Virus record (IMG/VR): IMGVR_UViG_3300046737_000119 | Location: 1 to 20,696 of that record | Length of the DNA: 20,696 nucleotides | Reading direction: 5' to 3' (one strand) | DNA from: a virus | Part shown: piece by piece, positions 3,800 to 20,040 of the stretch | Layout of the letters: each line of letters opens with the position of its first letter | Position numbering within the stretch: the first letter of the stretch is position 1 | Made by a program: the position numbers and the translations under genes | The notes under the pieces: model-generated | The model's input: the letters and a program-made list of their open reading frames with translations, nothing else | Told to the model about the DNA's origin: nothing | Database searches by the model: none

Positions 3800-5194
3800 C
3801 TACGCGGCGCGGAACTCCGGCACGATCGCCAGGTGCCTGCCGGCGGCCGATGTGCGCAGCGCGGGTGTGGGGCTGGGTGTCGCGGGCGGCGGGTCGGGCC
3901 AGGCCGATTCCGGTACCAGCGCGTTGATTCCGGCGCGGATGTCGGCCATGTCCTCGTCGGTGAGCCGGATATATTCGCCGGTCACTGTTTTTCTACGGTG
4001 GCCGAGCGCAGCACCCAGGACCTCCGGGTGCCGCAGGGGTCGTTTCAGCCAGTTCGAATAGGTGTGGCGCATGGAATGGGTCGTGAAATGCCGCGGGATG
4101 CCGGCCTCGCCTATGAGCGTGTTGATCTGGTCGAGATAGTAATCCTCCGTCTGCCACCGTCGACCGGCCCGGTTGGCCAATACGAGCTCCCGGTCATGTT
4201 GCGCCAGGGGTACCAGGATCCGCTGCATGATCCAGCCGGGGACGGGAATCTCACCGTCGTCACCGTTCTTTCTACCTGGCCGCTTGTCGCCTGCGGCGCC
4301 CCAGTGCCGGCGGATGTGGAGAATGTTGCGGCTCGGGTCGACGTCGGCTGGTGCCAGGCAAGTCACCTCACAGATCCGCAGGCCCGTGACCAGCATGACC
4401 AGCAGCACCGCAGCGAAACGCGGACTGACCTGATATGCGATGCGCAGGAACGTCGCCACCTCGGCCGGGTTATGCAGGATGGGTTTCTGTTGGCGGCTGA
4501 CCGACCGCGGCGTTTCCATTCCCCGTAGCGGATTCTGCGTAGTGCGCAGCGGAATGCGACCGGAATTGGTGGTGGTGGCCCAGTCGAATACGGAAAACAG
4601 AAACGTCCGCACATCGGCGATCGTGTTCACCGACAACGGTCGGGCCGGTCGGTGCATCAATTGGGATTGCCATGCCAGGCAGGTATCGGGGTCGGGGTTG
4701 CGTTCGTCGGTCTGTTCGCCGGTCTGCGCATCGGCGATGCTGGCGCGGCCCAGCGGCAGCGGTTCGATGTGGCAGCGGATCTGTTCCTGGTGTTTGTCGA
4801 AACTTCCTTTGCTCAGCGGGCGCATCGATTTCTGTTTCCACGTCAGGTACCGCCGGCAGGCATCGGCCACGGTGACGTATCGGGCGGCCGGCGGGCGGGT
4901 CGGCGATCCCGCCGGCCGGGGCTGGGCGGGAAGTTTCCACCCGAGGCCGCAGGCCCGCAGCTGGTCGGGTGTCGGTGTGGCGCCGCCGTTGGCCGCCACC
5001 AGGGCCTGCAGTCGCTGCGCATACGCCTGGGCCTTATCGCCGAGCTCGCGGGTGTTGAACGTACATGTGGGTCGGGCCGGTGCGCCGGCGGCCCGGGCGG
5101 CCCGGTCGCGTTCGGGCCAGCGCACGCGGTAGGTGGTGCTGCCGTCGCTGGGGTTGTGGCGGGTTTCGATCGTCGCCGCGGTTCTCTTGACCAT
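3800..5194 (-). CDS. int: Tyrosine integrase
   Basis: A 464-residue tyrosine recombinase that would catalyse integration and, with a directionality factor, excision. I chose ATG 5194 because AGGAGG lies 10 nt upstream, though a GTG at 5239 is in phase. The N-terminal region has an arm-binding-like part (DGSTTYRVRWPERD), then a core-binding helical domain (SFDKHQEQIRCHIEPLPLG). The catalytic domain shows VTGLRICEVT with the first Arg (273), the Lys region around KRPGRKNGDD, HSMRHTYSNWL with His 373 and Arg 376, LGHRRKTVTGEY with His 399, and the Tyr nucleophile at 408. No catalytic residue is missing. The C-terminal tail beyond about residue 425 is Pro-rich. It is flanked on both sides by phage genes. 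Confidence 0.94.
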   Translation of the reverse strand: MVKRTAATIETRHNPSDGSTTYRVRWPERDRAARAAGAPARPTCTFNTRELGDKAQAYAQRLQALVAANGGATPTPDQLRACGLGWKLPAQPRPAGSPTRPPAARYVTVADACRRYLTWKQKSMRPLSKGSFDKHQEQIRCHIEPLPLGRASIADAQTGEQTDERNPDPDTCLAWQSQLMHRPARPLSVNTIADVRTFLFSVFDWATTTNSGRIPLRTTQNPLRGMETPRSVSRQQKPILHNPAEVATFLRIAYQVSPRFAAVLLVMLVTGLRICEVTCLAPADVDPSRNILHIRRHWGAAGDKRPGRKNGDDGEIPVPGWIMQRILVPLAQHDRELVLANRAGRRWQTEDYYLDQINTLIGEAGIPRHFTTHSMRHTYSNWLKRPLRHPEVLGAALGHRRKTVTGEYIRLTDEDMADIRAGINALVPESAWPDPPPATPSPTPALRTSAAGRHLAIVPEFRAA

Positions 5195-5498
5195 GTTCGG
5201 GGGGCCTCCTGTCGTGCCGGCTTCTGGGTTGGCCAACACGTCCGGCGCCGTCGCGGGTTACGCGCCGGCGGCACCGGTTCTGCCCCTCGGAGTGCATCCC
5301 CCGTGCCCCTCGAAAGGTGGTCGACCATATTTGCGCAGGTCAAGGGCATGATCAACCGTGACTACCGGAGATGCACCACTTCTGCGCTTGACACGCCGCT
5401 GACCTGCAGAAACGCACATTACCCGGACATCAGCACCCGGACAACTGCCGGAAATGTCCCGCTGTCTCGATGTAGCTAGCGGCGTTCCGGGGCGTATT
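5195..5498. other. Integrase-upstream intergenic region with repeats
   Basis: About 300 nt without a supported gene. It holds a direct repeat ACCCGGACA at 5421-5429 and 5435-5443, and an inverted pair GCAGGTCA near 5334-5341 with TGACCTGC near 5400-5407. A poor promoter-like pair for the integrase lies on the minus strand (TTGATC at 5355-5350, 17-nt spacer, AAATAT at 5332-5327). AGGAGG sits 10 nt before the integrase ATG. Direct and inverted repeats beside an integrase are often arm-type binding sites or part of attP, but no core can be fixed without the matching attB. Confidence 0.35.
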
Positions 5499-11342: not shown

Positions 11343-11725
11343 CAGGTCGCTCCGTGGATCGTGGACACGATGCGGGTGATGCGGTCGTCGATCGCGGCGA
11401 CCGCGGCGGGTTGCGAGCTCTGCAGGGTTTCCGCCAGCCACGGCTGCGGTTCGATGTTGTGGCCCGGCCAGCCGTTGTGGATGACCCGGGCGTAGGGGAT
11501 GCCGGGGCCTCCGGCGGTGACCGTCGCGGTGGCGCGGTCCCACGCGGGGCGGGTGGATCCGGCGAGGCGGCCCGTACGCCGCGGCGCCCGGCCGCGGGAC
11601 GTGTTGGCCATCCGGACCGCGATGCCCTGGCTCACGGCGCGCATGTCGGTCATCGACCTGGCGGCGGCGGCCATCGTCGCCGCGAGCCGGTCCGCGCCGA
11701 TGACCTGCACCCCGGGGGTGGTCAT
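11342..11725 (-). CDS. HK97 gp10-like tail/head-tail joining protein
   Basis: A 127-residue protein with the gp10-like signature: a helical start (MTTPGVQVIGADRLAATMAA), then RAPRRTGRLAGSTRPAW, which fits the AP..TGrL..S pattern of the family, then IPYARVIHNGWPGHNI and a C-terminal helix. ATG 11725 overlaps the tube stop (ATGA). The frame is open further upstream inside the tube gene, but that part is a shadow. Family members occupy the head-tail joining or tail-completion position. Its TGA overlaps the next ATG by one base. Confidence 0.85.
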   Translation of the reverse strand: MTTPGVQVIGADRLAATMAAAARSMTDMRAVSQGIAVRMANTSRGRAPRRTGRLAGSTRPAWDRATATVTAGGPGIPYARVIHNGWPGHNIEPQPWLAETLQSSQPAAVAAIDDRITRIVSTIHGAT

Positions 11726-12171
11726 ACTCCGACGCGTTCCCGGGCGGTGGTCACAGGGCTGGTCCCCCACACCGGGTCGCCGACGATGTCCCACTCGAAA
11801 TCTACGGACATGTTCTTCTTGACCTCGTCGCCGCCGACGTCGAGCGGGTCGACGGTCAGGGTGCCGGTCACGGACTTCCCCGCGGCCGTGTTCGGGGTGA
11901 ACACGAACGGGAAGCTGTTGCCCTTGTTGTCCCAGGTGAAATCGACCATGCCGCCGTCGGACAGGTCCAGCAGGACCGTGCCGGTCATCTTCGCGGTGTA
12001 GGTCGCCGCCCCGGCCAGGGTGTCCCCACACAGGGTCGGGATGTCGTCCTCTTTATCCTTCGACCACTCGACCATGGCGGCCGACAACTGGCACGACATG
12101 TCGAGCATGTCGGGCGCGGTCGCGCCGATGGTGAGTTCACCCGGGCCGAGTTTCGTAGCGGTACCGGCCAT
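11722..12171 (-). CDS. Major tail tube protein
   Basis: A 149-residue tube protein that stacks as rings to form the non-contractile tail. It matches the actinophage tube group: MAGTATKLGPGELTIGATA at the start, a segment reading LCGDTLAGAATYTAKMTGTV, then LLDLSDGGMVDFTWDNKGN and FVFTPNTAAGKSVTGTLTVD. The end has the DFEWDIVGDPVWGT signature. GGAGAGGAAC just before ATG 12171 is a good binding site. The stop overlaps the next start (ATGA). It lies before the gp10-like protein, the reverse of the order usually seen in HK97-type phages. Confidence 0.9.
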   Translation of the reverse strand: MAGTATKLGPGELTIGATAPDMLDMSCQLSAAMVEWSKDKEDDIPTLCGDTLAGAATYTAKMTGTVLLDLSDGGMVDFTWDNKGNSFPFVFTPNTAAGKSVTGTLTVDPLDVGGDEVKKNMSVDFEWDIVGDPVWGTSPVTTARERVGV

Positions 12172-12180
12172 GTTCCTCTC

Positions 12181-12549
12181 CTAAACGGTGACGTTGAAGA
12201 TCAGCACCGGGACGTTGCCGCCGTCGGCGACGATCACCTGCCCCGGCGTGATGGTCGTGATCTGGTATTCGGCCAGGGCGGTGGCGACCGGGTCTATCAG
12301 GGCATCCCCGGCCGCCACCGTTGACATCGGATCACCACCTGGCAGCGCGACGCATGTCTGCCAGTCGGTTTCCGCCACGCACATCGCCACCGGCCGGGCG
12401 GTCTGCCACGTCGGCCACACGTCCCATACCGCGATCGGGTGCGGCTGGACCGGTTTCGCCGACAGGGTGATCGGGTCCCCGTTGAATGTGGCGGAGACGC
12501 CATCCAGCGCAGCGACGAGCTCGGCCCGTATCTGCGCCAGATCGACCAT
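12181..12549 (-). CDS. Putative tail completion/terminator protein
   Basis: A 122-residue protein directly before the tail tube gene. It begins MVDLAQIRAELVAALDGVSA, a helix typical of small tail-completion or head-tail joining proteins. It continues with beta-rich segments (HPIAVWDVWPTWQ, CVAETDWQTCVALPGG), then a helix and a final strand ending VPVLIFNVTV. These proteins cap the tail and join it to the head. ATG 12549 lies 9 nt after the secreted-protein stop, with no strong ribosome binding site. Its TAG is followed by GGAGAGGAAC for the next gene. The assignment relies on position and fold style. Confidence 0.7.
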   Translation of the reverse strand: MVDLAQIRAELVAALDGVSATFNGDPITLSAKPVQPHPIAVWDVWPTWQTARPVAMCVAETDWQTCVALPGGDPMSTVAAGDALIDPVATALAEYQITTITPGQVIVADGGNVPVLIFNVTV

Positions 12550-12558
12550 GACGGTTTG

Positions 12559-13014
12559 TCAGCGGTCCGTGGGGACGCACCGCAGCCGCAGCCGCGTGGT
12601 CACGGGACGCAGGACGTCATCGTCGTCATCCCACCAGTCGCCATCATCGTCGTCGTGGCCGCGGCCTGCGGTGCGCAGCACGCTGTCGACGTCAACGGCG
12701 TCGACCTCCTCGCGGCTGGATCGCCGCACACCTGGGCGGCAGCTCCACAGCATCCGACCGTCGTCGATCAGGACGCGGATGAAACACAGGCGGCGTTCGC
12801 ACCGCTGCTCGAACGTGACGGTGGGTCGGGGTCGGACCCGGTCCCGGTCGTCGTGGTCGGTGCCGGCGATGGTCTGCGGCGCGCTGGCCGCCGCGGTGTC
12901 GGCCGTCTCGGGGATGGGCATGGCGTGTGCCGCGGGGACGCCGAGCGTCGCGGCGGCGAGCGCGGCCACGGAGAGCAGACTGGCCCGCCGTGCTACCGCC
13001 TGAATCGTGAACAC
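12559..13014 (-). CDS. Predicted secreted protein with four cysteines in the connector-tail operon
   Basis: A 151-residue protein starting at GTG 13014 with GAGGAG 6 nt upstream. The N terminus looks like a secretory signal: a short basic region with two adjacent Arg (RR), a hydrophobic run (LLSVAALAAATLGV), and a cleavage-like AHA followed by M near residue 31. The mature part begins with an Ala/Thr-rich segment, then has four Cys (EQRC, RLCF, LWSC, RLRC) that could pair as disulfides outside the cell. A strongly acidic Asp/Trp patch (DDDDGDWWDDDDD) lies between the last two. Codon third positions are strongly GC, so it is coding and of the same style as its neighbours. I do not recognise a family. 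A secreted protein is not expected between connector and tail genes; a lysogenic-conversion (moron) or envelope-acting role is inference. A poorly conserved stopper cannot be ruled out. Confidence 0.78.
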   Translation of the reverse strand: MFTIQAVARRASLLSVAALAAATLGVPAAHAMPIPETADTAAASAPQTIAGTDHDDRDRVRPRPTVTFEQRCERRLCFIRVLIDDGRMLWSCRPGVRRSSREEVDAVDVDSVLRTAGRGHDDDDGDWWDDDDDVLRPVTTRLRLRCVPTDR

Positions 13015-13028
13015 GAACTACTCCTCAC

Positions 13029-13169
13029 CTAGAAGACTTCGTCGTCGTCGGGATCGGTCGGGTTGGGCGCCGGCGGCGCCGGTGGCGCCGGTTCCGGGTC
13101 ATGCGGTACCGGGGGCCCGGATGGCGGGCGGCCCGGGTGCCGCTGCGGGGTCCTGTCGTCGTCTCTCAT
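13029..13169 (-). CDS. 46-residue proline-rich acidic-ended small protein
   Basis: A short gene with ATG 13169 and TAG at 13029. AAGGAG lies 6 nt before the start and overlaps the stop region of the connector gene, which makes translation likely. The protein begins MRDDDRTPQRHPGRPPSGPP, continues with Pro/Ala repeats (PEPAPPAPPAPNP), and ends DPDDDEVF. It is probably disordered. I do not recognise a family. It sits between the connector and a signal-peptide protein, and its stop is followed closely by a GAGGAG ribosome binding site for the latter. It could be a spacer or assembly factor, but no function can be claimed. Confidence 0.7.
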   Translation of the reverse strand: MRDDDRTPQRHPGRPPSGPPVPHDPEPAPPAPPAPNPTDPDDDEVF

Positions 13170-13180
13170 GTCGACTCTCC

Positions 13181-13513
13181 TTATGCCGTGACGAACTTGC
13201 GTAACCGGCGTTCGAGGCGTTCGATCTCCGGGTCGAACTGCGGCAGCCGCGCCGGGCCGTACTCCTCGGAACCGGTCAGGCCCAGCGGCACACCGCGGGC
13301 GGCGACACTACGGCCGCAGCGGCGGAACAACGCCAGCCGCAGCGGGGGCGGGTACGCGGCGGTGTCAGCGGGCCAGGTGTCGGGGATCCGGCACGACATG
13401 ACCTGCAGCTCAACCTCCGCGGCGAGGATGTCGGTGAGTTCGGCGTCGCTCATCGCCGCGGTCGTGACTTTCAGCCATGCCCGCAGCTCGTCAACCGTGG
13501 GAACGGTCGCCAT
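13181..13513 (-). CDS. Head-tail connector protein (gp6-like)
   Basis: A 110-residue protein right after the capsid gene, where gp6-like connectors sit in HK97-type phages. It begins MATVPTVDELRAWLKVTTAA and has the helical pattern seen in this group, with an acidic stretch around AELTDILAAEVELQVMSCRI and an RLALFRRCGRSVAARGVPLG segment. The end (EIERLERRLRKFV) is helical and basic. ATG 13513 has AAGGGGG at 7 nt. The connector attaches beneath the portal. The assignment rests on position plus sequence style. Its TAA is followed by a strong AAGGAG for the next small gene. Confidence 0.8.
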   Translation of the reverse strand: MATVPTVDELRAWLKVTTAAMSDAELTDILAAEVELQVMSCRIPDTWPADTAAYPPPLRLALFRRCGRSVAARGVPLGLTGSEEYGPARLPQFDPEIERLERRLRKFVTA

Positions 13514-17043: not shown

Positions 17044-17045
17044 GG

Positions 17046-17077
17046 GTTGAGACCACATCGTGGGGGATGCTCTCAAC
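17046..17077 (-). promoter_or_regulatory. Stem-loop overlapping the stop of the pre-portal gene
   Basis: A perfect 7-bp inverted repeat, GTTGAGA at 17046-17052 and TCTCAAC at 17071-17077, encloses an 18-nt loop and includes the stop codon at 17073-17075. It lies 2 nt before the larger hairpin at 16983-17043. There is no T tract, so a simple intrinsic terminator is not clear. Together they could act as an attenuator, an RNA-processing site or an mRNA stabiliser. Confidence 0.45.
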
Positions 17078-19158: not shown

Positions 19159-20040
19159 TCAGTGGGCCAGCGACCAGGCGTTGATCCCACCGATGGCGAG
19201 CATGATCAGCAGCGTGATGACGATGAACCATCGCAGCTCACCGAACGCGCGCCCCTGATCCTCGATCTGCTCCTGCACGTACTGCGTCTGCTGCGTCTGC
19301 CCCGAGACTTGCATGGCGAGATCCGCGACCGCGTTCTGAACGTTGCTCGTCCGACCGCGCATGTTTTCCATGGCGATCTCGATCTCATCGAGGTCGGCTG
19401 ACATCGACGCGAGCGAGCTATTGACATGCGGAGCGAACTCGTTGCCGAGATAGCCGGTGCGTTGGAAACATGTCCATAACGCCCCTGACGCGGTATAGCT
19501 TTCGTCTTCGCTCGGATTCACATCCGCCGACCACACTTCTCCTGCTGACACGTCGTCGTCTCCTGTCCATCCCCACGGTTGCGTGGAGTCCATCGCCCCG
19601 CCCTCGCCGGTACAGTCGACGCTGACGTGGGCATGTTTGTCATGGGGGTTCGATCCGTAGTAGTCGCACCAGGCCCAGTTACTGTCCGGGCTGGCGATCC
19701 GCCGGTTGCTGATGATGTAGCTGACCCGCGTTTCCCGTTGACCACCAATCAGGATCTCGCCCTTACAACGCCGCCGCTGCCAGTCGGCGTAGGCGTACGA
19801 ATCGAAACCGTTGTTCGGGTCATGGGTGAAATCCCGCGCGGTGACCACGCATCCGCAACAGTGCGGGTTGTGGTCCGAATCCGTGCTCTGGTGCGCCTCA
19901 TCACCGATCGAACCGTCGCTCGCCTTGCTCCGGTTCGGCGCCGACGCGTTGATCTCCGCCAGCAGCTGGTCAAGACTCCCCGCCACGCGCCAGGCCATGG
20001 TCGCCACCGCCGTTCCTGTCATCGGATCCATCAAACCCAT
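19159..20040 (-). CDS. M15-type endolysin fused to a coiled coil and a C-terminal membrane helix
   Basis: This 293-residue protein is probably the lytic enzyme. Residues 40-142 match actinophage peptidase M15-type lysin domains, which cut peptidoglycan stem peptides using zinc. Visible markers are SIGDEAHQ (44-51), SDHNP (55-59), the Asp-containing TARDFTHDP (67-75), IISNRRI (109-115), and GSNPHDKHAHVSV (129-141), whose His residues are candidate metal ligands. After an acidic linker (about 150-200), residues 205-268 form a predicted coiled coil rich in Gln, Met and Glu. A hydrophobic helix (271-289, from WFIVITLLIM) follows, then a short tail. The coiled coil plus one terminal membrane helix resembles XhlA-type holin-associated proteins. 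No separate holin is seen next to it. The linker codons are richer in A/T thirds than the enzyme domain. The stop is 2 nt before the terminase small subunit start. The M15 call is strong; the holin-like role is inference. Confidence 0.83.
   Translation of the reverse strand: MGLMDPMTGTAVATMAWRVAGSLDQLLAEINASAPNRSKASDGSIGDEAHQSTDSDHNPHCCGCVVTARDFTHDPNNGFDSYAYADWQRRRCKGEILIGGQRETRVSYIISNRRIASPDSNWAWCDYYGSNPHDKHAHVSVDCTGEGGAMDSTQPWGWTGDDDVSAGEVWSADVNPSEDESYTASGALWTCFQRTGYLGNEFAPHVNSSLASMSADLDEIEIAMENMRGRTSNVQNAVADLAMQVSGQTQQTQYVQEQIEDQGRAFGELRWFIVITLLIMLAIGGINAWSLAH

Follow-up and report, generated by a model that had tools for sequence, protein, structure and literature searches.

The window analysed here is the whole 20,696-base stretch of virus record IMGVR_UViG_3300046737_000119, which belongs to a small bacterial virus whose hosts are probably actinobacteria (Actinomycetota). 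The presence of an integrase gene (3800–5239) indicates that the phage is probably temperate. Its structural genes lie on the minus strand in the order terminase, small gene, portal, protease, capsid, connector-like gene, Pro-rich open reading frame (ORF), four-cysteine gene, 122-residue gene, tail tube, neck-like gene, a further small gene and tape measure. The connector-like gene (13181–13513, minus strand) encodes a probable Ad1-like head–tail connector (weak PHROGs match to phrog_5938, E = 0.026), and the major tail (tube) protein is encoded at 11722–12171 (minus strand; phrog_4574, E = 1.6e-34). Between the two, the Pro-rich ORF (46 residues; 13029–13169, minus strand) lies upstream of the four-cysteine gene, and a conserved 122-residue gene (12181–12549, minus strand), without a match in family searches, occupies the place of a tail terminator or completion gene and is named by that position only. 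Upstream of the terminase, a 293-residue protein (19159–20040, minus strand) is an endolysin candidate by eye only; it matches phrog_32486 (unknown function) and nothing in Pfam or PDB searches. In its counterpart from the related contig L002, a histidine-rich run (HDHHVH) is present and the C terminus is hydrophobic.

The four-cysteine gene encodes 151 residues, running on the minus strand from a GTG start codon (13014–13012) to a stop at 12559. The original prediction had placed it correctly at 12559–13014, leaving the strand unstated, and had described a strong ribosome binding site and GC-rich third codon positions. Both descriptions were borne out: the Shine–Dalgarno sequence GGTGAGGAG lies at 13029–13021 (minus strand), where it overlaps the stop codon of the Pro-rich ORF, and is also found in L002 and in a second related contig, L003; third-position GC is 0.86, on par with the 0.85–0.89 of neighbouring genes. 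Homologues occur in L002, L003, L004 and L008. Among the close homologues, dN/dS is 0.23–0.25 (window versus L002 or L003) and 0.12 (L002 versus L003), third codon positions account for most of the changes (39 of 62 and 44 of 68), and the gene is under purifying selection. Long antisense ORFs do overlap it, as they might if the frame were spurious or an antisense artefact of high-GC DNA, but the third-position bias, the ribosome binding site, dN/dS values of 0.12–0.25 and cysteines conserved at 46% identity leave that reading with almost no probability, and we dropped it because the substitution pattern refutes it. Synonymous divergence is very low at the 3′ end of the gene (pS 0.04, window versus L002), and dS in the 122-residue gene is 0.10, compared with 0.3–0.4 in most nearby genes; the low divergence across 12181–12650 possibly reflects recent recombination.

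The N terminus had been read as a secretory signal with an AHA cleavage-like site, and that layout is evident. The predicted Sec signal peptide (residues 1–31; 12922–13014, minus strand) ends in RRASLLSVAALAAATLGVPAAHA, followed by MPIP: an Arg-Arg pair is succeeded by a hydrophobic run and then AAHA, such that the charged n-region, hydrophobic core and AxA site expected for Sec and signal peptidase I are all present. Under a crude home-made rule applied to ORFs of at least 60 residues in the window and related contigs, 22 of 4,015 ORFs (0.5%) qualified, 3 of the 22 being the four-cysteine ORF and its homologues. Whole-protein shuffles passed the rule in 12 of 20,000 cases and shuffles of the first 45 residues in 1,252 of 20,000, indicating that the unusual feature is mainly the N-terminal composition. 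The homologue in L008, which is 46% identical, retains the signal layout, the AHA–MP junction and all four cysteines in register. Judged from these features, the protein is probably exported by Sec and cleaved after AHA, leaving a mature part of roughly 120 residues. A Tat signal was rejected: there is an RR pair, but on visual inspection what follows it does not fit the Tat consensus.

The four cysteines and the Asp/Trp patch that had been noted in the mature part are both present. Three of the cysteines belong to a conserved core (residues 64–97; 12724–12825, minus strand; TVTFEQxCxRRxCxIRVLIDDGxxxxSCRPGVR), which is the most conserved part of the protein between the window and L008 (pN 0.18 versus pS 0.64). 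The acidic/Trp patch DDDDGDWWDDDDD (residues 121–133; 12616–12654, minus strand) is invariant in the close clade, and L008 retains its Asp run but not WW. The fourth cysteine, C146, comes after the patch, within RLRLRC. Disulfides between the four cysteines are likely, on this pattern, to stabilize the mature protein. Two AlphaFold models were poor (pLDDT 48.9 and 54.6), reaching moderate confidence only at residues ~62–91, as beta strands, with three cysteines in or beside that part; in the second model the conserved core alone has block pLDDT 73–79.

HMM and structure searches of the kind suggested alongside the original prediction gave no match, and the structure prediction yielded only these poor models; Foldseek with one of them (pLDDT 54.6) found no fold match at E ≤ 0.001. 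The protein matched nothing in Pfam, PHROGs, NCBIfam or PADLOC, or in phage and plasmid collections (tblastn), and the one PDB match by sequence (E = 0.3) was taken as chance. A host origin was sought in 397 Actinomycetota genomes, which gave no usable match and six weak partial ones judged to be chance (E = 0.001–0.006), and in 395 genomes of the class, again with no usable match; such negatives carry little weight in the absence of a positive control. Scanning genome contigs with peptide patterns gave no host-origin match either. No homologue of known function emerged from these searches, and one close clade accounts for four of the only five sequences known for the family. The family is otherwise undescribed in the libraries searched; exported morons as a kind are already known, and the literature on actinophage morons with signal peptides yielded no direct precedent.

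Searches with the tail-tube protein yielded 21 and then 63 viral contigs, plus cultured relatives. With the connector-like gene as left anchor and the tail-tube gene as right anchor, 57 contigs, including the window, carried both in order. There was no four-cysteine homologue in 53 of the 57, in the stretches searched (mostly stretches rather than whole genomes), nor in G003, G004 and G005, which were searched as whole records. The connector-to-tail-tube spacing is 358–537 bases in 52 of these 53 homologue-free contigs and 650 in L039, and 1,022–1,044 bases in the window, L002 and L003. In relatives without the insertion, the 122-residue gene adjoins the connector gene. L002, L003 and L004 (a fragment) carry a homologue at the same site as the window; these three are ~87% identical in the alignment. 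The gap between the connector and terminator genes holds a small low-complexity ORF in some relatives, which differs between them (Pro-rich, acidic or Thr/Glu-rich; L008 7423–7614, L039 5375–5602, L047 5503–5646, L062 5482–5643). In L008 and L039, such a Pro-rich or acidic ORF is in the gap and the four-cysteine gene is missing there; in L008, a 63-residue Pro-rich ORF stands alone.

L008 is the nearest outgroup, and an HMM search located its homologue between the terminase and portal genes. The two four-cysteine proteins are 46% identical, compared with 58–80% for the other genes compared between the window and L008, and the gene has its own ribosome binding site at both genomic sites. In L008 it lies directly upstream of a conserved 26-base stretch, GCATCCCCCAnGATGTnGnCTCAACC, that precedes the portal gene (window 17045–17070, minus strand; L002 3080–3105; L003 3076–3101; L008 3516–3541); the small gene that follows terminase in the window, L002 and L003 stops immediately short of this stretch. 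Shuffling the window 100 times produced no match to the stretch by chance, and it is possibly a regulatory element.

Comparison of the locus across related phages had been proposed as a way to separate a moron from a diverged stopper, and it favours the moron: the gene is absent from, or inserted relative to, the related phages. It is an extra gene with respect to relatives whose operons are otherwise syntenic, and its position varies, as seen in L008. A gene that is missing or elsewhere in close relatives looks like cargo and not part of the virus particle; occupancy of two sites, absence from most relatives and faster evolution than its neighbours together suit a moron rather than a structural component. 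Classical morons have their own promoter and terminator. Neither was found for the four-cysteine gene, although the scan for sigma-70-like sites suits actinobacterial promoters poorly. The opposing reading, voiced originally as a new type of connector that only looks exported, is that of a head-closure (stopper) protein that has diverged while keeping its customary place. The gene does adjoin the connector gene on the downstream side, its product is of similar size and the low-confidence model is mostly beta, but 53 of the 57 contigs have no homologue in the stretches searched, and the one in L008 sits at another locus. Nor did the protein match a connector family in PHROGs (E ≤ 1), the poor model gave no fold match, and the signal layout and cysteines are conserved. 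The synteny and the second locus led us to drop the stopper or connector reading, which we consider very improbable. The gene may also be ancestral, having been lost or moved in most lineages.

Cultured actinophages provide further context. The Gordonia phages SallySpecial, Emperor and GRU3 and the Rhodococcus phage RRH1 have tail-tube proteins 45–55% identical to that of the window (tblastn) and the same order of connector, short gene and tail tube. Exactly one short gene fills this gap, which leaves no room for the four-cysteine gene, and unlike the window they lack it in the records examined. Their lysin genes are annotated between portal and capsid, a place without a lysin gene in the window; for GMA5, GRU3 and RRH1, the location of lysin genes inside the structural module has been described (PMC4524720). 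The group thus offers a precedent for encoding a protein that acts on the envelope in such an operon, which weakens the original view that an exported protein here is unexpected.

Taken together, we favour, with a probability of about 0.6, the reading of the four-cysteine gene as a moron: cargo in the terminase–head–tail operon of a small, probably actinobacterial, temperate phage, with an exported, disulfide-held product. Such cargo would have entered the late operon at two separate places. Because the gene has its own ribosome binding site and operon-like spacing but no detected promoter, it is probably co-transcribed with the late genes. Sec would then export the product, cleavage would follow AHA, disulfides among the four cysteines would hold the mature protein together, and its action would be at the host envelope or outside the cell, at a late stage of infection. 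As to its job, we can only guess that blocking of re-adsorption or superinfection and assistance with lysis are about equally likely, and a contribution to host fitness less so. More tentatively, the protein might represent a new exported, disulfide-stabilized family known so far from these phages alone. Its members would be produced late, act on the host surface (by exclusion, by masking receptors or by weakening the envelope) and move between structural-operon sites of very small temperate phages.

Two functional alternatives share much of this evidence. A factor expressed by the prophage for lysogenic conversion or superinfection exclusion, in line with two of the original suggestions, is possible though doubtful: a moron with a predicted exported product in an integrase-bearing phage suits it, as does the late-operon moron of P22-like phages, which in P22 includes the superinfection exclusion gene sieA (PMC2629481). 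However, benefit to a lysogen requires expression from the prophage, and the promoter scan, poorly suited to actinobacteria as it is, detected no promoter of the gene's own; PADLOC also gave no match. Somewhat less probable is a lysis accessory, a holin or lysin helper at the host envelope expressed late from the structural operon. Predicted export, the late-operon position and the siting of lysin genes among the structural genes of RRH1, GRU3, SallySpecial and Emperor would fit such a role, as would the failure to identify a holin in GMA5 and GRU3. By inspection, however, the only hydrophobic segment lies within the signal peptide, so the protein is not a typical holin; it shows neither a holin, endolysin or lysin B family match nor two or more transmembrane helices, and has no enzyme motif. 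Most relatives lack it in the stretches searched and have to achieve lysis in its absence.

If the moron reading holds, a few of these phages, despite very small genomes, retain, in two alternative places, an additional and probably exported protein that is subject to purifying selection, and its target would tell what a minimal temperate phage gains from acting on the host envelope while virions are being built. Signal-peptide exclusion proteins of temperate phages are small, phage-encoded and exported or envelope-bound. The four-cysteine protein is likewise small, phage-encoded and predicted to be exported, but it differs from them in having four cysteines and no lipobox, and no sequence relation was found. 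With the ant moron of P22-like phages (PMC2629481) it shares insertion among late genes relative to its relatives and no evident role in virion assembly. It differs from that and similar phage morons in consisting of one gene for which neither a promoter nor a terminator of its own was detected, in occupying two different sites and in encoding a product that is predicted to leave the cytoplasm by export.
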